Below, piece by piece: positions 1,128 to 18,650 of a stretch of DNA of 38,057 nt. Made by a program: the position numbers and the translations under genes. Origin of the DNA: a virus; IMG/VR virus record IMGVR_UViG_3300037502_004175, positions 1 through 38,057 of that record; one strand, given 5' to 3'. How positions within the stretch are numbered: the stretch's first letter is position 1; each line of letters begins with the position of its first letter. Below the pieces are notes generated by a model. It was not told the DNA's origin. It made no database searches and saw only the letters and a list, made by a program, of their open reading frames with translations.

Positions 1128-2714
1128 TTAATGCTTAGGAAGTTTAGGGTAGAGGACGAGCTCAAAATCATCCGGACGATTATGCCACCTACCTTTAACA
1201 ACCTTGGTATAAAGAACTTTTTCGACCACTTCTTTTAGTAAAGCATTCTTTTTACCTGGATCATCAACTTTGTGATAGACTTCCAAGACTTTTTCTACTT
1301 TAGGAATGATAAACTTCCTATTTTTTTCTCTATTAGATTCTCTAGACAAATCTTCTAAGAGGATATCACGATCACTTTCAAGTTGTTTTACCTTATTAGA
1401 AAGCAACTTAGAACGTTCCAAGAATTTATCAGTGGAGTAGATACCTTGTTCTAATAAGTCATGCAGATTGTTTAACTGCTTTTGCAAGGTTTCAAGTTCG
1501 CTTTCTATCTTTTTAACAGCTTTTTCTTTAACATCTAATTGAATATTAATATTTGGTTGTTCAACTTCTGGAATAGCCCATTTCATTTTATACTCTTGGA
1601 GCCAATGCTCAAGAGCTTCTATAATTCTCTTCTCAACAAACTCTAGATGTGAGCTCACATTATCACAAGATGAAAGCCTACACATTAAAATATCAGGTTG
1701 ATTAGGTAGAGGTCTACGGATTAATTTTCGATTACATTTACCACAGACTACTAGACCAGCTAAGGGGTTCTTAATAGCTTTATTTTTAATAACAGGTTGT
1801 ATGGTATTCTGTGACATATAATGTTGTGCAAGATTCCAAGTATCATCATCTATTATTGCTTCATGAATCCCATGTACAATAATACAATCCTGAGCCTTTG
1901 CTCTTGGACGTTCTTTTTTTATTTGACCATCTACAATCTTCTTAACACTAGGGCGCGCATTCCAACGTATTTTGCCATTGTACACAGGATTGGTAAGAAT
2001 ACCCCTAACAGAACTATTAACCCATCTATCGCCCTTCTGAGGGGGTATTTTCATATCATTTAATTTATTAGCTATAAGGGAGGACCCTAGGCGGTTATAA
2101 ATGCCTTCTGATTGCATTTCGCCTTTTGTATATAGCTCATAGATCAACTTTACAATATCAGATTGTTCTGGATGTAATTCAAGGGTATATCCTTTATCAT
2201 TGTGAAGCTTTTTACGTACATAACCATAAGGTGGTGTATTACCAAGATATTTACCTTCTTGAACAGAAGCTAGACGACCTCTTTGCAAACGCCTATTAAT
2301 AGTTTTGTATTCGCGTCGGCTCATAAAAAGACCAAACTCAAAGTATTCCTCATCAAATTCATTATTCGGATCATAAGTCTTCATAGGTGTTATGATTTTG
2401 GTATTAGAATACTTGAAAGTTTGAGTCATAATCCCTTGGTCTACAGTATCACCACGGGCAAGACGTTCCACTTCCATAACCAGAACACCAGTCCATATAC
2501 CTTGCTCAACTTCATTAAGAAGTTGTTGCATCACCGGACGAGCAGCAATGGTTTCACCAGACACAATCTCACGATAGATTTTAACGATATTCAGTTTTTG
2601 TCTTTTGGCTAAATCAAGAAGAGCACGTTCATGGCGGATGAGCGTTTCACCTTCACCACGTGCTTCAGCGTCAAGGTCGGCTCTTGATTTGCGGAGGTAT
2701 ATGCAGTAGTTCAT
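1128..2714 (-). CDS. Large serine recombinase (phage integrase/excisionase)
   Basis: A 528-residue site-specific recombinase for integration and excision of the prophage. The N-terminal resolvase domain (about 1-150) has the nucleophile Ser10 in YLRKSRAD and the conserved ERLARGD segment near 83-89. A Recombinase domain (about 160-280) contains GNTPPYGY. A zinc ribbon follows with Cys324, Cys327, Cys345 and Cys350, then a coiled coil (about 390-460) typical of this class, which controls directionality. Gene orientation is the same as the interrupted cotJC, whose fragment begins 30 nt past its stop, the classic position beside an att site. A recombination directionality factor would be needed for excision; none was recognised in the window. 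Confidence 0.93.
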   Translation of the reverse strand: MNYCIYLRKSRADLDAEARGEGETLIRHERALLDLAKRQKLNIVKIYREIVSGETIAARPVMQQLLNEVEQGIWTGVLVMEVERLARGDTVDQGIMTQTFKYSNTKIITPMKTYDPNNEFDEEYFEFGLFMSRREYKTINRRLQRGRLASVQEGKYLGNTPPYGYVRKKLHNDKGYTLELHPEQSDIVKLIYELYTKGEMQSEGIYNRLGSSLIANKLNDMKIPPQKGDRWVNSSVRGILTNPVYNGKIRWNARPSVKKIVDGQIKKERPRAKAQDCIIVHGIHEAIIDDDTWNLAQHYMSQNTIQPVIKNKAIKNPLAGLVVCGKCNRKLIRRPLPNQPDILMCRLSSCDNVSSHLEFVEKRIIEALEHWLQEYKMKWAIPEVEQPNINIQLDVKEKAVKKIESELETLQKQLNNLHDLLEQGIYSTDKFLERSKLLSNKVKQLESDRDILLEDLSRESNREKNRKFIIPKVEKVLEVYHKVDDPGKKNALLKEVVEKVLYTKVVKGRWHNRPDDFELVLYPKLPKH

Positions 2715-3718: not shown

Positions 3719-4150
3719 CTAGTAGAATTTAAATTTAATTATTTCTTTTGGTATTGCTAGTATTTCAGATATTTCTTCAAGATTTCGTCCTTTAAAGTCT
3801 GGATCCAGATGAAAATTATCCGGTAGAAGTAAATGTGCTGAAAATTCATTCGCCTGTCGCTCAAACTTCTCTTTTGAAAAAAAGGTCTCTTCAGTTAGGT
3901 AAGACATATTAAGAGTAGGGTGAAGGACAGCATGTCCTAATTCGTGAGCACATACTACCCGTTGATCATAATAATCTAAGTTTACATTAATAATTATGAA
4001 ATGGAAACCATTATGCTTAATATATAATCCTTTTATATTTCCTAGGTATTCGTAGAGTAGATTTATTCCAAGATAGTCAGCGATTTCGTTTGGCACGTTA
4101 GTATCGTATTTATCAATTAAAACTTCAACTTTATTTTTTATCCAATTCAC
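3719..4150 (-). CDS. ImmA/IrrE family metallo-endopeptidase
   Basis: A 143-residue zinc peptidase of the ImmA/IrrE group, which in ICEBs1 and related elements cleaves the XRE immunity repressor. The zinc motif is HELGH at residues 69-73, with a downstream ERQANEFSAHLLLP helix supplying the likely third ligand, Glu102. Start is GTG at 4150, with an AGGAAG ribosome site inside the end of the upstream gene and only 1 nt between the genes, so translation is probably coupled. Unusually it is not next to the repressor gene (8126-8524) but 4 kb away, between a nucleoid-associated protein and an Abi-like gene. Its target may be that repressor or an operon-specific partner. Confidence 0.88.
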   Translation of the reverse strand: MNWIKNKVEVLIDKYDTNVPNEIADYLGINLLYEYLGNIKGLYIKHNGFHFIIINVNLDYYDQRVVCAHELGHAVLHPTLNMSYLTEETFFSKEKFERQANEFSAHLLLPDNFHLDPDFKGRNLEEISEILAIPKEIIKFKFY

Positions 4151-4151
4151 T

Positions 4152-5165
4152 TTAAAAACTTCCTGACATTTTATTTATATTTTTTATTAAAAGAGAAACC
4201 GTTCCATCAGGATTGTTCATAAACTCAAGATAATTGGAATTCTTATAATGTTCTATTGGTATATTTATTTCTATTCCTATATCAGTTTTAATTTTTTGCT
4301 TACTTATTTTATTAATGGAGTTTTCATTGGTAAAAGAAATATTTTTTTCTTTTATACCTTTTTTTTGTATTTCCTCTTCAAAATCTTTTTGTATTTCAAT
4401 ATTATTATTAAATGTAGTACTTACAACTTGCTCTATATCTATAGTGCCGGTTTCTTCAAACTGGTTAAATAAAGATTTTTTAAAGTCCATATTTTTATCT
4501 AGGGTGTCGTTGTAGTACTTTTTATTAAGTTTATCAGCAGTTTTAGTAATAATATTTAATTTTTCTTTTGGAGAAATATATGCTTCAGACTGCAAATACA
4601 GTTCTGATAAATAATTTCTTGGCTCACCATTTATTTCACATTTTTTTTCAAGTAATAAGATATTATAATTATCTAATTGAATAATAATTGCTTCATCAAC
4701 TTTTTGAGATAACTGAGGAAGCGTTGTTTTTTGTTGTATTATTGAGTTTTTAGTATTGTTGTTGTTAGAAGTTACATAATGTATATAAGATGTTTTATAA
4801 TTAAGTTTAAGGATTGACATGTATTGCTTATCATCAACAGTATATGTAACAAAAAGTAAATCACAAGAGGGTATGTATATATTTTTTTTCATTAATTGAA
4901 ATAAAACTGTAGATAGATTTTTTGATGTAGCAATCAAACCAGCTGAGTTTAATAATGATAATTGAGTGTATACATAATTATTGTCTGTTTTAAAGGTGCT
5001 GCTTTTGAGTAAATCACTATTTATTAGCTTTGAGATGTGTGTGGTTGCAAAATCAATAACAAATTCTGATCTATCTAATAGATCATCAGATAAAACAGGT
5101 ATGTCTAAAGACGTGTCTAGTATATGTAATATCATTTCTTGAATTTTTATATCATCTTTGTTCAT
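4152..5165 (-). CDS. 37-kDa nucleoid-associated protein family (NdpA/YejK-like)
   Basis: A 337-residue protein matching the NA37 pattern: an N-terminal helical part with SDDLLDRSEFVIDF, a central strand MSILKLNYKTSYIHYV, then DEAIIIQLDNYNILLLEKK and a helix YLSELYLQSEAYISPKEK. Bacterial NdpA/YejK binds the nucleoid; prophage and defence-island homologues occur but their role is not established. First gene of the operon with ImmA and the Abi-like gene; ATG start with AGGAGGT upstream. It lacks the long basic tail of some homologues, and the region from 230 to 290 is charged and probably flexible. A role in sensing or binding phage DNA is inference only. Confidence 0.75.
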   Translation of the reverse strand: MNKDDIKIQEMILHILDTSLDIPVLSDDLLDRSEFVIDFATTHISKLINSDLLKSSTFKTDNNYVYTQLSLLNSAGLIATSKNLSTVLFQLMKKNIYIPSCDLLFVTYTVDDKQYMSILKLNYKTSYIHYVTSNNNNTKNSIIQQKTTLPQLSQKVDEAIIIQLDNYNILLLEKKCEINGEPRNYLSELYLQSEAYISPKEKLNIITKTADKLNKKYYNDTLDKNMDFKKSLFNQFEETGTIDIEQVVSTTFNNNIEIQKDFEEEIQKKGIKEKNISFTNENSINKISKQKIKTDIGIEINIPIEHYKNSNYLEFMNNPDGTVSLLIKNINKMSGSF

Positions 5166-5964: not shown

Positions 5965-6921
5965 TTATCTAGAAGTCAATAAGTTTCTTATCTTTTGTAA
6001 GTTCCTTGTAAAAATATTAGTGTGTTCCTCACTAGTAACATTTATTTGTTCATTTGTTTTTAGCGTTTGGTAAGCAATTGTACTGGTGTTTTCTAAAGGA
6101 CTATTTTCTGGTAATGCAATTGTTAATGTTTCTGTAAAGTTATCATTTCTTAATGTTCCTGTTGATCCATTTGTATATTTTACTGCCATAACGGGTTCTG
6201 TAGTACCTTTTGAATTACTTATTAGACGTGCAACTTCCTGTTTGTTTTTTGGAGAATTAAAAGTTGCATTCCCTGTTCTAGAACCAAGTCTTTCTGCAGC
6301 AGCTCTTAAGTCTTCATCTAGAGAAGATTCAGGGATATCTGCATTAAGTGGATATAAACGCAGGATAAGCTGATTTATAGTTTCTACAGATTTTAATTTT
6401 TCTTCAATGGATACTATAGATGGTAATCCAATAATGTTTACTAAGGGAATTGGTAGCTTGGCGTTTTTATCAGCGATATCATTATTAATATTTCTAACAT
6501 ATCTGTCTAAAATATGCCTTACTGTAGCATTGAAACTTTTAATATTAGGACTTTCTTTCCTTTGGTTTTTAATAAAAATCATACGATGGTTCTTTAAGAA
6601 GATTATGAAAGTAGAGAAAGGAGCATTTGGTACTGTTTGATTTTGTCGCTCAAGACGATTACTGTAAATAGATTTTATCTCTACTTTAGTTTGTTTTATG
6701 AAATATCCGACTAAAATAAATTCATTAGGTTCTACTTCTAATATCTTTACTTCATCAAAGAAATATTTATCACTTTGATACACTCTCGCTAAGTCGCTAG
6801 TCATTGCAGGGTAAACAATTGAATCTAAATAATCTAACAAAGGTTCCTCAGTCTTTGAATCTTTACTAAAAGTAACATTAAAATTAGCTAAATAAGTATT
6901 TTTTGCTTCTTGATTTGGCAT
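5965..6921 (-). CDS. Uncharacterised 318-aa soluble protein, partner of the membrane gene
   Basis: Not recognised. ATG start with a strong GGGAGG 10 nt upstream. The N-terminal 200 residues look globular, with mixed strands and helices (FFDEVKILEVEPNEFILVGYFI, APFSTFIIFLKNHRMIFIKNQ). The last 110 residues are Ser/Thr/Asn-rich with a short final helix. There is no signal peptide or membrane segment. It is first in a two-gene minus-strand unit with the four-helix membrane protein, just leftward of the immunity region where lysogenic-conversion genes usually sit. The size pairing recalls the Kiwa defence system (four-helix KwaA plus about 315-aa KwaB), but gene order is reversed and I see no KwaB signature, so that link is not claimed. 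Confidence 0.6.
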   Translation of the reverse strand: MPNQEAKNTYLANFNVTFSKDSKTEEPLLDYLDSIVYPAMTSDLARVYQSDKYFFDEVKILEVEPNEFILVGYFIKQTKVEIKSIYSNRLERQNQTVPNAPFSTFIIFLKNHRMIFIKNQRKESPNIKSFNATVRHILDRYVRNINNDIADKNAKLPIPLVNIIGLPSIVSIEEKLKSVETINQLILRLYPLNADIPESSLDEDLRAAAERLGSRTGNATFNSPKNKQEVARLISNSKGTTEPVMAVKYTNGSTGTLRNDNFTETLTIALPENSPLENTSTIAYQTLKTNEQINVTSEEHTNIFTRNLQKIRNLLTSR

Positions 6922-7027
6922 TGATATAACCTCCCGTATTAATTATTATTTATAATAAAACAATAATACATAAAGATATGATTATCATTGTTTTTTCTAC
7001 AAATTTCGCACTAGCACTTATAAAAAA

Positions 7028-7058
7028 GAGCAGAGATATCCTAATGAATTCTCTGCTC
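7028..7058 (-). terminator. Rho-independent terminator of the SWIM gene
   Basis: 9-bp arms GAGCAGAGA and TCTCTGCTC with a 13-nt loop; on the minus strand the stem is followed by TTTTTTA. It closes the SWIM-protein transcript. The 115 nt between it and the SWIM stop codon hold nothing else I can name. Confidence 0.85.
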
Positions 7059-7173
7059 GCTGTATTGTCATTATTTTATTGTGATTTTCCCCAAGTTGTC
7101 ATGAGCACTATATAATTAACCCTTATGTTATGTAATAAGGTACTAGCTCCCCAGCTAATGCCTTCATTGCAAT

Positions 7174-8052
7174 TTATGTACAACGATTTTTGTTATATTT
7201 ATTTAGTAAAGTAGTAACATCATCATCTGGAAATTTATATTTAATAGCTGATTCAAAGGCAGATTGGCCTATTGAAATAGAACCTATAGGTTTGGCTCCA
7301 GCTGGAATTTCAACAATATTCTCACCATCAAAATACGTTTCATCATCATATTTTCTACGTAAATATGTATATAATTTACGTTTGCTCTTTTCGAAGAGAG
7401 GGTTTAGCCTAACCGATAATGCATCTGAAAAAATATCATTAATTTTATCTGGAATATTTTCTATGCAAAATTGAATTAGTTTGGATAGACTCATGTTTTT
7501 TTTGAAACCAACTATATTGAGAGGTGATAATCTATTATTAAGTTCATTTCGAGAAAATGTACCTAATAATTCTTTAGGATCTTCAAATTTATATAATATC
7601 TCCTGGTTAATAATATTTGAGATATTGGTATTTTCTTTTACTCCAACAGAAGTCTTCTTATGGAAAAGAATTTCAAAAAGAATGTTTTTAAGTTCAAGCT
7701 GTTCTTCAGTAGAGAGTTTTTCAATTTTATCAACTGACTCTTCAAGTTTAAAACTATCTGGATGTGGTAGTTTTTTTATTATGGTAATATCGGCTTTCGC
7801 TTGCAAGTTTACTAACCCTAATTCAATTGCCAGTCTATATATATGCTTGCAAGGCAAATGACGTCTAATAAAGTCCCCACAATTGCATTGATTAAGCATA
7901 ACGTTATAAAGACCACGTCTTCCACTAAACACACCTGTTTGTTTCTCTCTATCAATATTTAGTGGAGTACATTCAGCTTTTTGAGCACTGATTAATCTCT
8001 TTTGTTGATCGCTATGAATATGAATAGCTTCATTCCATTTACCAAAGTTCAA
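7174..8052 (-). CDS. SWIM zinc-finger protein with possible SAP-like segment
   Basis: About 292 residues. Start is uncertain: TTG at 8052 has GAGGTGA 5 nt upstream, while GTG at 8061 overlaps that site. The SWIM signature CxC-x9-CxH is intact (C-N-C-G-D-F-I-R-R-H-L-P-C-K-H, near residues 56-70), predicting a zinc-bound fold that contacts DNA or protein. Around residues 160-195, the segment FSRNELNNRLSPLNIVGFKKNMSL resembles a SAP-type helix-extension-helix, which binds DNA; this is tentative. The C-terminal 60 residues are unrecognised. It lies between the repressor and the accessory operons, and has its own terminator. Stand-alone SWIM proteins occur in prophages and islands without a settled function. 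Confidence 0.7.
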   Translation of the reverse strand: MNFGKWNEAIHIHSDQQKRLISAQKAECTPLNIDREKQTGVFSGRRGLYNVMLNQCNCGDFIRRHLPCKHIYRLAIELGLVNLQAKADITIIKKLPHPDSFKLEESVDKIEKLSTEEQLELKNILFEILFHKKTSVGVKENTNISNIINQEILYKFEDPKELLGTFSRNELNNRLSPLNIVGFKKNMSLSKLIQFCIENIPDKINDIFSDALSVRLNPLFEKSKRKLYTYLRRKYDDETYFDGENIVEIPAGAKPIGSISIGQSAFESAIKYKFPDDDVTTLLNKYNKNRCT

Positions 8053-8125: not shown

Positions 8126-8524
8126 TTATGGTTTACTTCTCTTCATGTCTTCAGCCAATTCTTTTACATTCTGTATAGTTTTAAGTAATAACTTTCTTGT
8201 ATGATCATCAAGTGGCTCTCCAGAAAACATAAGCCCATCTGTAGATTTTAATTTTTCAATAAAGCCATTAAGCTCTTCATCAATTTCTTTTTCTTTCCTA
8301 GGTTGTCCAATAGGAGTAGGGTCATTAGTAAAGCCTAATAGATAATCCAATGAAACATTAAATAATTGTGCTAGTTGTTTTTTTGTTTCATCATCTGCTT
8401 GTCTAGCGTTTCTTTCGTATTGTGATATATTATTTTTGGATTTTCCTAAAATTTTTCCTAGTTCTTCTTGTGTTAACTCTTTTTTTAACCTTAATTCCTT
8501 TAAACGATTGCCAAAGTTAGACAA
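8126..8524 (-). CDS. XRE-family phage repressor (ImmR/CI-like)
   Basis: 132 residues. The N-terminal helix-turn-helix (about 5-62) reads LKELRLKKELTQEELGKILGKSKNNISQYERN, followed by the FNVSLDYLLG segment typical of prophage immunity repressors. The C-terminal part is short and helical with no LexA-like Ser/Lys self-cleavage domain, as in ImmR-type repressors that are inactivated by an ImmA protease; an ImmA gene is present at 3719-4150. Start is TTG at 8524 with GAGGTGA upstream. It is transcribed away from an XRE gene at 8687, with four GGTTACT half-sites between them, so it very likely controls both promoters. Confidence 0.9.
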   Translation of the reverse strand: MSNFGNRLKELRLKKELTQEELGKILGKSKNNISQYERNARQADDETKKQLAQLFNVSLDYLLGFTNDPTPIGQPRKEKEIDEELNGFIEKLKSTDGLMFSGEPLDDHTRKLLLKTIQNVKELAEDMKRSKP

Positions 8525-8543
8525 GCTTTATCACCTCAATATT

Positions 8544-8572
8544 ATTGTAGTATTCAATATGGTTACTGTAAA
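8544..8572 (-). promoter_or_regulatory. Leftward sigma-A promoter of the repressor gene
   Basis: On the minus strand, TTTACA (8567-8572) and TACAAT (8544-8549) are separated by exactly 17 nt. The -35 box overlaps half-site 1, which fits repressor autoregulation. Confidence 0.75.
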
Positions 8573-8672
8573 TAGAAAAGAGTCAAGTAACCAATAAGAT
8601 AACATTTTCTAAAATTTATGTTGACAGTAACCAAAACGTGTACTATAATACAGTTAACAGGTTGGTTACTTG
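8561..8672. promoter_or_regulatory. Operator region: four GGTTACT half-sites
   Basis: Four 9-nt sites: GGTTACTGT at 8561-8569 (+), its complement type ACAGTAACC at 8624-8632, CAAGTAACC at 8584-8592, and GGTTACTTG at 8664-8672 (+). They form two sequence types, each used once in either orientation. One overlaps the leftward -35 box, one overlaps the rightward -35 box, and one lies just after the expected rightward start. This is the layout of a bistable immunity switch. Confidence 0.75.
8621..8649 (+). promoter_or_regulatory. Rightward early (lytic) sigma-A promoter
   Basis: A consensus promoter: TTGACA (8621-8626), 17-nt spacer, TATAAT (8644-8649). A repressor half-site overlaps the -35 box and another lies near +10, so the promoter should be fully shut by bound repressor. 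Confidence 0.92.
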
Positions 8673-12716: not shown

Positions 12717-13424
12717 ATGATAAAACAAGCATTAGAATATTTAATAGGATTAGGTAAAACAGAAATCATTCAAGTTGGGGAGCATAAGTTTGCTACTAAT
12801 ACTTTGAAGAAAATCGATGAGCCATTAGTTAGAGAGCCATTCAATATAACAACTTTAACAGGTATTGTAGACTATATAAAAGAAGGCATTGATTGCAATG
12901 TAATAGGTCCTGAAATGACAATACATATTGAATCTCCAACAAGTATTTCAATTTATTCAGAGCTTGCTAAAGATAAGTTCAGAGAACAATTAGTACAAGC
13001 TAGAGCTATTGTACCTAAAATTCCTTTTGATCAATTCTTTGATGTAGAAAGTTTCAATATACTACTTCAAAGTTGTTTTGAAGTAAATGGAGATCGCTCT
13101 AAAGTATTAACAATAGTAGGTACAGTTAAAGAAGAAAATGTAAGGACAACTGGTGACGATGGTATTAGTCAAATGGTTACTGCGAAAGTAGGTATTGCAT
13201 CTTTTGATGATGTAAAAGTACCAAATCCAGTATCGTTAAAGCCATATAGGACATTCCCTGAAATTGAACAACCAGAAAGCAAATTTGTTTTCAGAATGCA
13301 AGATGGGCCTCGAGCAGCACTTTTTGAAGCAGGTGGTACTGGTTGGAGAGTCGAAGCTATGCTTTCAATTAAAGAATATTTAAAAGAAAAACTTCAAGGA
13401 CACTCTGTAAACATCATTCTATAA
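12717..13424 (+). CDS. Conserved phage protein of the DNA-metabolism block
   Basis: 235 residues, ATG with TAGGAGGAA upstream. Likely folds: an N-terminal domain with LEYLIGLGKTEIIQVGEHKFATNTL, then FNITTLTGIVDYIKEGID and ESPTSISIYSEL, and a C-terminal YRTFPEIEQPESKFVFRMQDGPRAALFEAGG part. It resembles phage proteins grouped as DUF2303-like that neighbour recombination and replication genes. Function unknown. It is the gene immediately before the inverted repeat and ParM-like gene. Confidence 0.65.
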   Translation: MIKQALEYLIGLGKTEIIQVGEHKFATNTLKKIDEPLVREPFNITTLTGIVDYIKEGIDCNVIGPEMTIHIESPTSISIYSELAKDKFREQLVQARAIVPKIPFDQFFDVESFNILLQSCFEVNGDRSKVLTIVGTVKEENVRTTGDDGISQMVTAKVGIASFDDVKVPNPVSLKPYRTFPEIEQPESKFVFRMQDGPRAALFEAGGTGWRVEAMLSIKEYLKEKLQGHSVNIIL

Positions 13425-13429
13425 AAGAA

Positions 13430-13479
13430 GATATCCTATTGATATCACGAACACCTATTCGGCATATCAATAGGATATC
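13430..13479. promoter_or_regulatory. 16-bp perfect inverted repeat, candidate centromere (parC) or operator
   Basis: Arms GATATCCTATTGATAT (13430-13445) and its exact complement (13464-13479) flank an 18-nt centre. No T-run follows, so it is not a simple terminator. It lies 30 nt before the ParM-like start, the usual place for parC. The same 16-mer recurs at 18525-18540. Confidence 0.7.
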
Positions 13480-13508
13480 CATTTAAACAAATAAGGGAGG
13501 AAGCTACT

Positions 13509-14477
13509 TTGAAATACATTATATCAGTTGATCCAGGTAAAAGAAAAACTAAATGTGTAGGCAGAAGTGTACTAGAATCAAATGACAAGGAGATTTCATT
13601 TCCAACGAAGTATTATGACTTAAATAATGGCGACATAGAACTCCAAGGAAATTCATACAAAGTTAGTTATTTTGAATGTGAAGAATATATTCTTGGGGAA
13701 CAAGGTGAAATCTATGATACAAGTACCACTAAGACATCTTTTGTTCACGAATTATCTATTTACACAGCTATTACGGCTATTGCAGGGAAAGACACAAATC
13801 CTAAAGTGATCTTGACAATTGGTTGTCCAACAGCAATTTATAAAAATCCTGATTTAAAGAGTAATTATCGAGATTTAATTATGAAAGATAAGTTGATAGA
13901 AATTACAGTGAATGATGTTGACTATAAAATTGAATTAGAAAAGGTTATAGTCAGATGTGAAGGTAGTGGCATTGCTTACCTTGAACCTAATGTTTTTAAA
14001 GGTCAAAGGGTTGCTGTTGTTGATCTAGGGGGACGAAATATGAATTTTGGAATTTATGACAATAGAGTACCTGTTCCAAGTACTTTATTTTCTAATAACT
14101 TTGGAAGTACCTTACTTGAAACTATGCTTAGAGAAGAATTCTCGATTTTTTATGGTGATGATTACGACTTAGAAACAGCAGCAATGGCACTAAAAAATGG
14201 AGGATTAATTATAAATGGTCAACTGGATAAAGATAGTGCTTTACTAGTAAGAGAAGTAATAGATCGTTATATTAAGAATCACATTCTTAATAGTATCCGA
14301 GAGAAAAATATTAATCTCTCAATTATGCCTGTAGTAGCTATTGGTGGTACAAGCAAGATTATAATAGATTACTTAAAGAAACATATACCACACATACAAT
14401 TATCAACAGTAAATGCTCAATGGGCTAATGTAAAAGGTTATCAAATTGTTGGGCTAGTGAAAGCTGGGATTGTATGA
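13509..14477 (+). CDS. ParM/StbA-family actin-like ATPase
   Basis: 322 residues of the actin/Hsp70 fold. The phosphate-1 loop is DPGKRKTK (about 8-15), the phosphate-2 loop VVDLGGRNMNFGIYD (near 170), and the adenosine motif VVAIGGTSKII (near 280). Plasmid ParM polymerises on ATP to push DNA copies apart; phage actin-like proteins such as AlpC of Corynebacterium prophage CGP3 move phage DNA in the cell. TTG start with GGGAGG upstream. It overlaps the small ParR-like gene by 4 nt and follows a 16-bp inverted repeat, forming a complete segregation-type cassette. Confidence 0.87.
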   Translation: MKYIISVDPGKRKTKCVGRSVLESNDKEISFPTKYYDLNNGDIELQGNSYKVSYFECEEYILGEQGEIYDTSTTKTSFVHELSIYTAITAIAGKDTNPKVILTIGCPTAIYKNPDLKSNYRDLIMKDKLIEITVNDVDYKIELEKVIVRCEGSGIAYLEPNVFKGQRVAVVDLGGRNMNFGIYDNRVPVPSTLFSNNFGSTLLETMLREEFSIFYGDDYDLETAAMALKNGGLIINGQLDKDSALLVREVIDRYIKNHILNSIREKNINLSIMPVVAIGGTSKIIIDYLKKHIPHIQLSTVNAQWANVKGYQIVGLVKAGIV

Positions 14478-14749
14478 GTGAAAAACTTCAAAAACTATTA
14501 ACTTTTAATGAGGATAACAAAGATATTTATGAATTACTGAATAAAAAATCTAACGCTTCGCAATACACTTGTGAAGCTGTTAGGTTTTATGAACGTCATA
14601 AAGATTTCATTCCATCGGTTAGTACTATTGAAATAAAGATAGATAAGATGTTGAAACAATTAGAGAAAGGAATAGTTCAGATAGAAAGTTCATCTAATGT
14701 TGATATTGATTTAGACTTGATTCAACAAATAATGGATGAAGATGACTAG
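14474..14749 (+). CDS. ParR-like centromere-binding adaptor
   Basis: 91 residues, co-translated with the ParM-like gene through an ATGA overlap. The N-terminal half (SNASQYTCEAVRFYERHKDFIP) has the helix pattern of ParR ribbon-helix-helix proteins; the C-terminal half is acidic and helical (DIDLDLIQQIMDEDD), comparable to ParR tails that cap the ParM filament. Identification rests on position, size and this pattern. It should bind the inverted repeat at 13430-13479. Confidence 0.7.
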   Translation: MSEKLQKLLTFNEDNKDIYELLNKKSNASQYTCEAVRFYERHKDFIPSVSTIEIKIDKMLKQLEKGIVQIESSSNVDIDLDLIQQIMDEDD

Positions 14750-14760
14750 GGGGTAGCTAC

Positions 14761-15747
14761 GTGACTTTTAATGTTGAAATTGCAAAGATGTATGGTGTTG
14801 ATGAAGCTATATTAATAGAAAATTTATTCTTTTGGATAAATAAAAACCGTGCTAATAATAGACATTTTTATGATGGATATTATTGGACCTATAATACTGC
14901 AAAAGCTTTTGCTGATCTTTTCCCATTTTGGTCAGAAAAGCAAGTAAGACGTATTATTAAAAGCTTAAAAGAGAAAGGTGTTCTTTTAACAGGTCATCAT
15001 AATAAAAAAGCTTATGATAGAACAACTTGGTATGCTTTAAGTAATGAAATTATGTCTTTTTATGGGGTGGAATGTGCAGAAATATCTGAAGATAATAATC
15101 AGCAGGTGCAAGAGAATGAAACCCTCTGCCCAAATGGGCAAATGGAATTTCCCAAACGGGCAAATGGAAGTACACCAAATGGTCAAATGGAATTTCCCAA
15201 ACAGGCAAATGGAACTTCCCAAACAGTCACACCTATACCAGATATAAACACAGATATAAACACAGATAATAAAAAAATTACTGTCACGACTTCGTGTGAC
15301 GAAGCAACGAATAGAAGTTCTAAGGGTGAACAAAAAAGTTCTGACTTTAAGTTTGAAGAGAATTCAGTACAGGTAAAAATAACAAAGTATTTAATAGCTA
15401 AAATCACAAGTCTATATCCAAAAGCCAAGGTACCTGAAACTCCAACGCAAATAGATAATTGGGCAATACATATTGATCGTATGATCAGAATTGATGGTAG
15501 AACTAAAGAAGAAATAGCAGAAGTTTTGAAATTTGCAACAGAAGATTCTTTTTGGCAAAGCCATATTTTGAGTACGGAAAAATTGAGGAAGAAATTCGAC
15601 ACTCTGTTTATTCAGCTGAAGAGTAAGTCTCAAAAAGGTTCTGCCCCTAAGAAGAATAGCTTTAATAACTTTGACCAACCTGATTATGACTATAGCGAGT
15701 TGGAAAGAAAAGCAAGAGAGCGTTTGATGATGAAAACTAGGAATTAA
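14761..15747 (+). CDS. Phage replication initiator (O/DnaD-like organisation)
   Basis: 328 residues from GTG 14761. The N-terminal winged-helix part (about 1-105) includes VDEAILIENLFFWI, WTYNTAKAFADLFPFWSEKQVRRIIKSLKEKGVL and a WYALS end, as in phage replication initiators. A low-complexity linker (about 110-200) contains four NGQMEFPK-type repeats encoded by DNA iterons. The C-terminal part has a DnaD-like helical segment (TKEEIAEVLKFATEDSFWQSHILSTEKLRKKFDTLF) that may contact the helicase loader. No loader or helicase gene was recognised, so host functions are probably used. Confidence 0.82.
   Translation: MTFNVEIAKMYGVDEAILIENLFFWINKNRANNRHFYDGYYWTYNTAKAFADLFPFWSEKQVRRIIKSLKEKGVLLTGHHNKKAYDRTTWYALSNEIMSFYGVECAEISEDNNQQVQENETLCPNGQMEFPKRANGSTPNGQMEFPKQANGTSQTVTPIPDINTDINTDNKKITVTTSCDEATNRSSKGEQKSSDFKFEENSVQVKITKYLIAKITSLYPKAKVPETPTQIDNWAIHIDRMIRIDGRTKEEIAEVLKFATEDSFWQSHILSTEKLRKKFDTLFIQLKSKSQKGSAPKKNSFNNFDQPDYDYSELERKARERLMMKTRN
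15136..15224. other. Four iterons inside the initiator gene: candidate replication origin
   Basis: Four tandem units of 22-23 nt, consensus RGGCAAATGGAAYTTCCCAA plus AC, at 15136-15157, 15158-15180, 15181-15202 and 15203-15224. The second is the most diverged. Origins inside the initiator gene with iterons are known from lambda O and many Firmicute phages. Confidence 0.75.
15240..15300. other. AT-rich unwinding region and small hairpin beside the iterons
   Basis: Directly after the iterons come two AGATATAAACAC direct repeats and an A-rich run, then a GTCACGA...TCGTGTGAC dyad. This is what a DNA-unwinding element and loading hairpin would look like; inferred from position and composition. 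Confidence 0.5.
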
Positions 15748-17801: not shown

Positions 17802-18383
17802 ATGAATACTGTACAACCAATTAAAGATTATGATCTGTTACTGGATATGATGGATTACTTTAAATTAAGGAGTGAAAGAGATTATGTTCTTTTTTGTACG
17901 GGCATCTATGCGCCTATTAGAATATCCGACATATTGCATTGGAAGGTAAGGGATGTTCGTAATAGAGAGTACATAAGTCTTAGAGAACGAAAGACAGATA
18001 AGGAACAGTTCTTTCCAATCAATACGGAGTTAAGGAAAGTCTTTAATAAATATATAGAAGGCAAGAAGGATTATGAGTATCTCTTCGCATCTAGACAAAG
18101 GAATAAGAAGGGTATATATGCTCCTATTAGTAGGCAGCAAGCATATAACATTCTTAACAAAGCTGCACAAGAGTTTGGCATTCAGAAGATTGGGTGTCAT
18201 ACGATGAGAAAGACCTTTGGATTTCACTATTATCAACAGACTGGGGACATTGTAACCCTTCAAGAGATATTTAATCATAATGATATAAGCATAACGAAGC
18301 GTTATATTGGATTAACACAAGAGATGAAGAATAATGCTATCAGAGACTTCAAATATAGGAGACTTCGGAAAGTAATTGTCTAA
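17802..18383 (+). CDS. Small tyrosine recombinase (catalytic domain only)
   Basis: 193 residues, the C-terminal catalytic domain of the phage-integrase/Xer family without the usual N-terminal SAM-like core-binding domain. All catalytic positions are visible: Arg40 (PIRISDIL), Lys64, His133 and Arg136 (HTMRKTFG), His159 (FNHNDI) and Tyr168 (KRYIG). Because the prophage already has a large serine recombinase beside its att site, this enzyme probably does another job such as dimer resolution or inversion. Phages of Firmicutes often carry such a gene just before terS. Inverted repeats lie in the 370 nt after it. Confidence 0.88.
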   Translation: MNTVQPIKDYDLLLDMMDYFKLRSERDYVLFCTGIYAPIRISDILHWKVRDVRNREYISLRERKTDKEQFFPINTELRKVFNKYIEGKKDYEYLFASRQRNKKGIYAPISRQQAYNILNKAAQEFGIQKIGCHTMRKTFGFHYYQQTGDIVTLQEIFNHNDISITKRYIGLTQEMKNNAIRDFKYRRLRKVIV

Positions 18384-18498: not shown

Positions 18499-18524
18499 TA
18501 AACGAAAGAAAAATATACCTAATA

Positions 18525-18540
18525 GATATCCTATTGATAT
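18525..18540 (+). repeat. Distant copy of the parC-like 16-mer
   Basis: GATATCCTATTGATAT, identical to the left arm of the inverted repeat at 13430-13445, 5 kb away. Here it is single, but the 3' end merges into a TTGATATATCAA palindrome. Confidence 0.7.
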
Positions 18541-18650
18541 ATCAAGGCATCAGAGGTGTCGCATTATTTTTTTATAGAATAATTATTTCTTAGCTCCCCT
18601 TAGAGCCCAAAAGGCATATAAATTTGCCATATTTAGGGGTCATATTTAGT

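Follow-up and report, generated by a model that had tools for sequence, protein, structure and literature searches.

A predicted type II ParMRC module in the early region of an integrating prophage, with a probable role after excision

The DNA analysed here, a stretch of 38,057 bases which we call the window and which is an IMG/VR record, raises the question of what an actin-type segregation cassette would do in a prophage. A preliminary description had proposed that a ParM-family gene, a small ParR-like gene and an inverted repeat form a type II partition cassette, and that the excised phage genome is kept as a plasmid for a time or positioned in the cell. The reading which we favour, and which we hold to be probable rather than assured, is that an integrating prophage here carries a complete type II ParMRC module, for partition or for positioning, which acts on excised phage DNA.

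The integrase side of the element lies in the left part of the window and the structural genes in the right part. The genes and repeats which bear on the question, other than the candidate centromere sites, are as follows.

1128-2714, minus strand: large serine integrase at the host junction (phrog_95, 2.4e-100; Pfam Recombinase and Resolvase)
8126-8524, minus strand: repressor-like HTH gene (phrog_8, 1.6e-23; from the ORF list)
12717-13424, plus strand: phrog_1029 gene, conserved left neighbour of parC (1.1e-84)
13509-14477, plus strand: parM, ParM/Alp12-family actin-like ATPase, 322 aa (Pfam ALP_N, phrog_691, PDB 4apw)
14474-14749, plus strand: parR-like adaptor, 91 aa (from position and conservation; AlphaFold2 monomer, pLDDT 79)
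14761-15747, plus strand: phage replication initiator (phrog_11233, 2.3e-33)
15129-15224, plus strand: 22-bp unit in 4.3 tandem copies within the initiator gene (Tandem Repeats Finder)
17802-18383, plus strand: second recombinase, of tyrosine type, 193 aa (phrog_216, 1.7e-58; Phage_integrase over cut-off)

The location inside a prophage was borne out, with the serine integrase adjoining a truncated Mn-catalase gene (721-1098) on one side, while further to the right the plus strand carries the genes for terminase, portal, capsid, sheath and baseplate. To the right of the repressor-like gene the genes lie on the plus strand, through parMR up to the tail genes, and the early ones run in the order phrog_997, phrog_1029, parM, the 91-aa gene and the replication initiator, which does stand beside the cassette as had been described. 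The phrog_1029 gene is likewise found to the left of parC in G187, G174, G109, L009 and L011. The tandem 22-bp units within the initiator gene are likely to be the iterons of the phage origin, and the short tyrosine recombinase, which has counterparts of 63-73% identity to the left of terS in L009, G109 and L011, may resolve dimers.

Several other features of the element were observed. Only the 3′ part of the Mn-catalase gene (721-1128) is left, ending at the integrase, which is the picture of a gene interrupted by a serine-integrase prophage. If the interrupted gene is the spore-coat gene cotJC, it might be made whole again by excision at the time of sporulation, in the manner of skin and SPbeta. 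We considered whether G109 and L011 share this integration gene and rejected the idea, since nothing in the stretches compared matched the catalase fragment. A perfect 17-bp inverted repeat at 668-709, 3′ of the gene at 1-657, is probably a terminator of the host flank, and the lysogeny strand carries genes for an M78-type metalloprotease and an NA37 nucleoid-associated protein at 3719-5165.

The assignment of the larger cassette gene to the ParM family was upheld. Its product matched Pfam ALP_N (5.5e-13), phrog_691 "partition protein" (6.6e-39) and, as a single sequence against the PDB, Alp12 (4apw; 185 bits, 1.6e-53), with the runner-up at just 19 bits. A profile built from ten relatives gave 361 bits for Alp12, 52-54 for the CBg and Cbc ParMs, 35 for R1 ParM and 25 for AlfA. 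Alp12, which we take to come from a Clostridium tetani plasmid, is therefore the closest solved relative over the full length, and by this similarity the window ParM is placed in the Alp12 branch; the solved CBg and Cbc proteins are presumably of C. botulinum origin. Unlike Alp12, the window gene lies on an integrating prophage and adjoins a phage initiator. It starts with TTG, with the ribosome site AGGGAGGA ahead of the start. Residues D8, G10, E151, D172, G174 and G279-T281, which we assume to be the motif positions of the actin fold, are invariant among 10 ParM homologues. With dN/dS of 0.052/1.16 and 0.018/0.257 in two close pairs, the parM family shows purifying selection.

The 91-aa open reading frame is coupled to parM as had been reported, through a 4-base overlap (ATGA) at the parM stop codon, and a small gene lies immediately 3′ of parM in 15/15 elements examined (the window, G001/L006, L009, G187, G174, G109 and L010-L018). 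Ten aligned adaptors have in common an N-terminal segment and an acidic end, and the relatives share a C-terminal EDD. The AlphaFold2 monomer of the window protein has helices at 13-24, 28-42, 46-73 and 80-87 (mean pLDDT 79), a predicted pattern compatible with strand-helix-helix plus tail, it being noted that a monomer model cannot reveal the ribbon; the model of the L016 adaptor was poor (pLDDT 64). Searches of Pfam, NCBIfam and the PDB returned no ParR or RHH match, a fold search no match to ParR or ribbon-helix-helix proteins, and a PHROG search only families of unknown function for the relatives and none for the window's protein. The type II layout which had been claimed has strong comparative support, in that parM, the small coupled gene and the dyad sites recur in relatives and the dyad is itself conserved; the small protein gave no family or fold match to ParR or RHH. 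ParR has no key motif according to the accessible text of PMC12270681, and SrpR, like the window adaptor, is described in the available part of PMC4489591 as being without detectable homology to known ParR.

The perfect 16-bp inverted repeat upstream of parM (arms 13430-13445 and 13464-13479, extending to 22-nt arms at 91%) was also confirmed, and perfect inverted repeats of 16 bp with a loop no longer than 40 occurred in 0/200 Markov-1 windows. The preliminary description had missed that this repeat consists of two opposed 17-bp dyads of the form GATATC-N5-GATATC, and a third, distant dyad was also absent from it.

13430-13446, plus strand: parC dyad 1, exact GATATC-N5-GATATC (best matrix score in the window, 23.8)
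13463-13479, minus strand: parC dyad 2, opposed, one mismatch to the dyad (second-best matrix score, 17.9)
18525-18541, plus strand: third dyad, distant from the other two, with the tyrosine recombinase gene on its left and terS on its right (third matrix score, 16.9)

GATATC half-sites stand in 11-bp phase at 13430, 13441, 13452 (degenerate), 13463 and 13474. The scores come from a weight matrix made of 19 sites of relatives (G187, L006 and L009) and no window sequence, with the base composition of the window as background. The fourth-ranked site scored 11.2, and the best scores in 100 Markov windows were 11.2 on average, 16.1 at the 95th percentile and 17.6 at most. At 18525, 16/16 bases match the arm at 13430, against an expectation of 7.5e-5 exact chance copies. 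We considered whether this third parC-type dyad, noted also with the bounds 18514-18541, is a site conserved beside terS and rejected the idea, since no counterpart was found at the corresponding place in L009, nor in L011 with L011's own motif.

Where the window has two dyads between the phrog_1029 gene and parM, G187 has six; L006 has an array of six directly upstream of parM, and L009 has six about 0.75 kb upstream of parM plus one in the parM leader. With two dyads against six in these relatives, the window parC may be a weak or decaying centromere. Other relatives carry units of other types in the corresponding position: GTATA(T/C)CC in place of GATATC in L010, L011 and G109, and GTAATACA-type units in roughly 10-bp phase in L012, L013, L014 and L015, while repeats are weaker in L016 and L017 and L018 has no clear iteron. 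The prophages of the GATATC type carry closely related adaptors, and the motif groups follow the ParR groups when both are grouped by eye. A repeated-7-mer statistic was less informative. In 7/14 elements ≤ 2% of the remaining stretches of the locus reached the value of the parM leader, the weaker results being those of the window, L009, L011, L013, L015, L016 and L017; in the window it was equalled by 31/538 other stretches, which is unremarkable. As this statistic is weak in the window and six others, we relied upon the conserved dyad.

A search for the same trio in other prophages, which had been suggested as a check, found the trio and its position in 14 related elements. Relatives were found in 3/49 pattern-matched genome-contig stretches and in 4/8 and 9/32 viral contigs (overlapping sets), and 31 of 392 genomes of one order gave matches at E 1e-10 or better, 5 of them, at six places, below 1e-100. 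A phage collection gave no match at DNA level; at protein level it gave none to ParR and one weakly matching record (70% covered) to ParM. The relative G109, located in a 542-kb contig, matches the window from serine integrase to sheath (identity 60% for integrase, 74% for terminase, 79% for portal, 70% for capsid and 60% for sheath), and in G187 (362 kb contig) and G174 (5.63-Mb contig) the terminase and capsid genes belong to different families. Two more cassettes lie on a 3.39-Mb contig of Niameybacter massiliensis, and L018 is a relative on a circular 38.8-kb plasmid with phage genes. Two side observations concern these records: in the circular phage-plasmid L018 (CP026602) ParM is split over two frames at 6540-7527 and unannotated, through sequencing error or decay, and G187 has two large serine integrase genes adjacent at the prophage edge (L050 9993-13195). 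Because the dyad is conserved, the relatives-only matrix picks out the window copies and the trio recurs in 14 elements, we regard the ParM-ParR-parC module on comparative grounds as genuine, its adaptor being a predicted ParR.

We also compared the direction and the upstream sequences of parM among the elements. In all ten testable integrating or unclassified elements parM is codirectional with the terminase genes (the window, L009, L011, L012, G109, G187, G174, G007, G008 and G009, with G001 and L010 left out), and in 3/3 integrase-less elements (L016, L017 and L018, the last so judged from annotation covering 27.5 of 38.8 kb) it is opposite to late or structural genes. A promoter-like scan of the 200 bases before parM, which used a consensus and leaves room for other promoters, scored no better than shuffles in 11/11 integrating elements. 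Among these, L010 is classed as integrating solely on a 312-aa tyrosine recombinase in its 22-kb record and G174 for its 5.63-Mb contig, in which no integrase was recognised; the fragment L012 was excluded. The three integrase-less elements have a near-consensus promoter-like sequence, TTGACT-17-TACAAT or TAAAAT, before parM, at 10.5 of 12.5, a score equalled by 18-21/300 shuffles, and six large plasmids scored 8.5-10. The contrast gave a Mann-Whitney value of 0.0002, or 0.005 for the three closest, both nominal and with relatedness ignored. As the ParM tree (without L018) separates the integrating and integrase-less groups alike, the promoter contrast may be a single event. From this arrangement we infer that parMR is an early lytic function in the window's lineage. 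As parMR belongs to the early operon of the lytic strand and no separate promoter is recognisable for it, the target would be excised, replicating phage DNA.

The dyads themselves could be explained in other ways. One reading, which we hold to be very improbable, is that the inverted repeat has nothing to do with ParR and folds into a hairpin in the early transcript, as an attenuator or processing site: the fold is indeed very stable (-27.6 kcal/mol, z -6.9), but there is no U run 3′ of the repeat and no terminator-like call there, Rfam gave no match above gathering score, and what is conserved in the relatives, as six separate dyads, is the dyad and not the hairpin, on which grounds this reading was rejected. 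A bantam microRNA match in Rfam, below gathering score, was likewise set aside as reflecting the hairpin only. The dyads might instead be sites of the phage repressor, as its operators, and not of ParR, since HTH repressors usually have sites with dyad symmetry and the element has a repressor gene (8126-8524); however, the repressor/cro gap (8525-8617) contains no dyad, the five matches with ≤ 2 mismatches all lying elsewhere, and the sites of the relatives cluster upstream of parM, so that we rejected this too as scarcely credible. A further reading accepts the sites as ParR sites and sees in them a shrunken two-dyad centromere whose main use is now as an operator, for control by ParR of its own operon and perhaps, through the copy at 18525, of the terS region. 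The six dyads of G187, L006 and L009 and the position of the dyad at 18525 upstream of terS speak for it. We consider it quite improbable, given that the reading frames are intact, that residues are conserved and that the family shows purifying selection; moreover, two 11-bp repeats suffice for binding by R1 ParR, as the accessible part of PMC9426499 has it, and the window has four clear half-sites.

The remaining alternative concerns the DNA which is moved rather than the sites: for part of its lysogenic life the phage would be a circular plasmid of low copy number, kept stable by ParMRC, and would integrate only at times. In favour of this, one relative lies on a circular plasmid of 38.8 kb packed with phage genes, ParM-carrying phages are known as plasmid prophages from the available portions of PMC8026635 and PMC6669507, and the second, tyrosine recombinase could resolve dimers. 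Against this stand the serine integrase at a junction with a truncated host-type gene, the near relatives in large chromosomal contigs and, for parMR, both its place on the lytic strand and a leader whose promoter-like score does not exceed that of shuffles, and we consider it unlikely. A role after excision, such as AlpC has, is thus favoured by gene direction and the lack of a recognisable promoter, while a lysogen maintained as a plasmid is less likely because an integrase is present and parMR is on the lytic strand.

The preferred reading, a module acting on excised phage DNA, can be set beside known systems, for which the comparisons below draw on the accessible parts of the papers cited. 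Like the window, the AlpAC system of the Corynebacterium prophage CGP3 belongs to an integrated prophage and has an actin-like protein, a DNA-binding adaptor (predicted in the window) and upstream repeats; alpA and alpC are induced early on excision of CGP3, and the loss of either about halves the circular phage DNA (PMC4446434). It differs in that CGP3 is a prophage of 187 kb, against a window of 38,057 bases, and that its adaptor comes first (inferred from the operon name) and its motif is TTAAnnG, whereas the window has parM first and GATATC dyads (PMC4446434). The srpMRC system of SXT/R391 ICEs is likewise a ParMRC in an integrating element, serves the excised form and has direct and inverted repeats in srpC; however, it belongs to a conjugative element with a srpM-srpR-int operon, whereas the window is a phage with the cassette beside the initiator (PMC4489591). 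The window parMR, in line with the early genes and the initiator, may be compared to such an operon turned on at excision. The order parC-parM-parR is common to the window and the ParMRC of plasmid R1 and of Clostridium perfringens plasmids, and R1 also shares the 11-bp repeat phase, but R1 parC has ten repeats around a promoter, in contrast to two dyads and no promoter-like sequence in the window (PMC9426499). Phage B83, in the portion of its description available, has ParM and an adaptor gene as in the window as well as Xer-type recombinases, with parM and repA opposite to most genes, whereas in the window an integrase is present and the lytic strand carries parMR. Cb-cParM and Dh-cParM1 are chromosomal ParM-ParR pairs, while the window's relatives lie within prophages; the accessible text of PMC12270681 holds no word starting with "phage", whereas the relatives found here are prophage-borne.

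In the mechanism which we propose, ParR dimers would bind GATATC half-sites one helical turn (11 bp) apart, the acidic tail of ParR would contact the end of the ParM filament, and growing filaments would move or separate circular phage genomes. The parMR genes, beside the replication initiator and with no promoter of their own, would be read through from the early operon, and as a consequence would be silent in the lysogen and active between excision and packaging. They would keep low-copy excised genomes inherited or place them for replication.

ParM in phages and integrating elements is already known (PMC4446434, PMC4489591, PMC8026635 and PMC6669507, each as far as its text was available). 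Among titles and the starts of abstracts, with subscription journals mostly outside the search, we found no description of a ParMRC of Alp12 type placed within an integrating prophage's early operon, and the new aspect is possibly this regulatory placement. Tentatively, and with rather more doubt than confidence, we suggest that a clade of integrating clostridial phages captured an Alp12-type plasmid cassette, dropped its promoter and placed it among the lytic early genes, making it a post-excision mover of replicating DNA. If this is true, some of the "chromosomal" ParMs whose purpose is unknown may be lytic genes of prophages, which offers an account of ParM genes on chromosomes, a question left open by the accessible text of PMC12270681. 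The cassette connects integrating clostridial phages with an actin motor of plasmid type and with a candidate centromere which is conserved and recognisable, and the contrast between the early-operon cassettes of integrating elements and the promoter-driven ones of their integrase-less kin predicts when each would be expressed.
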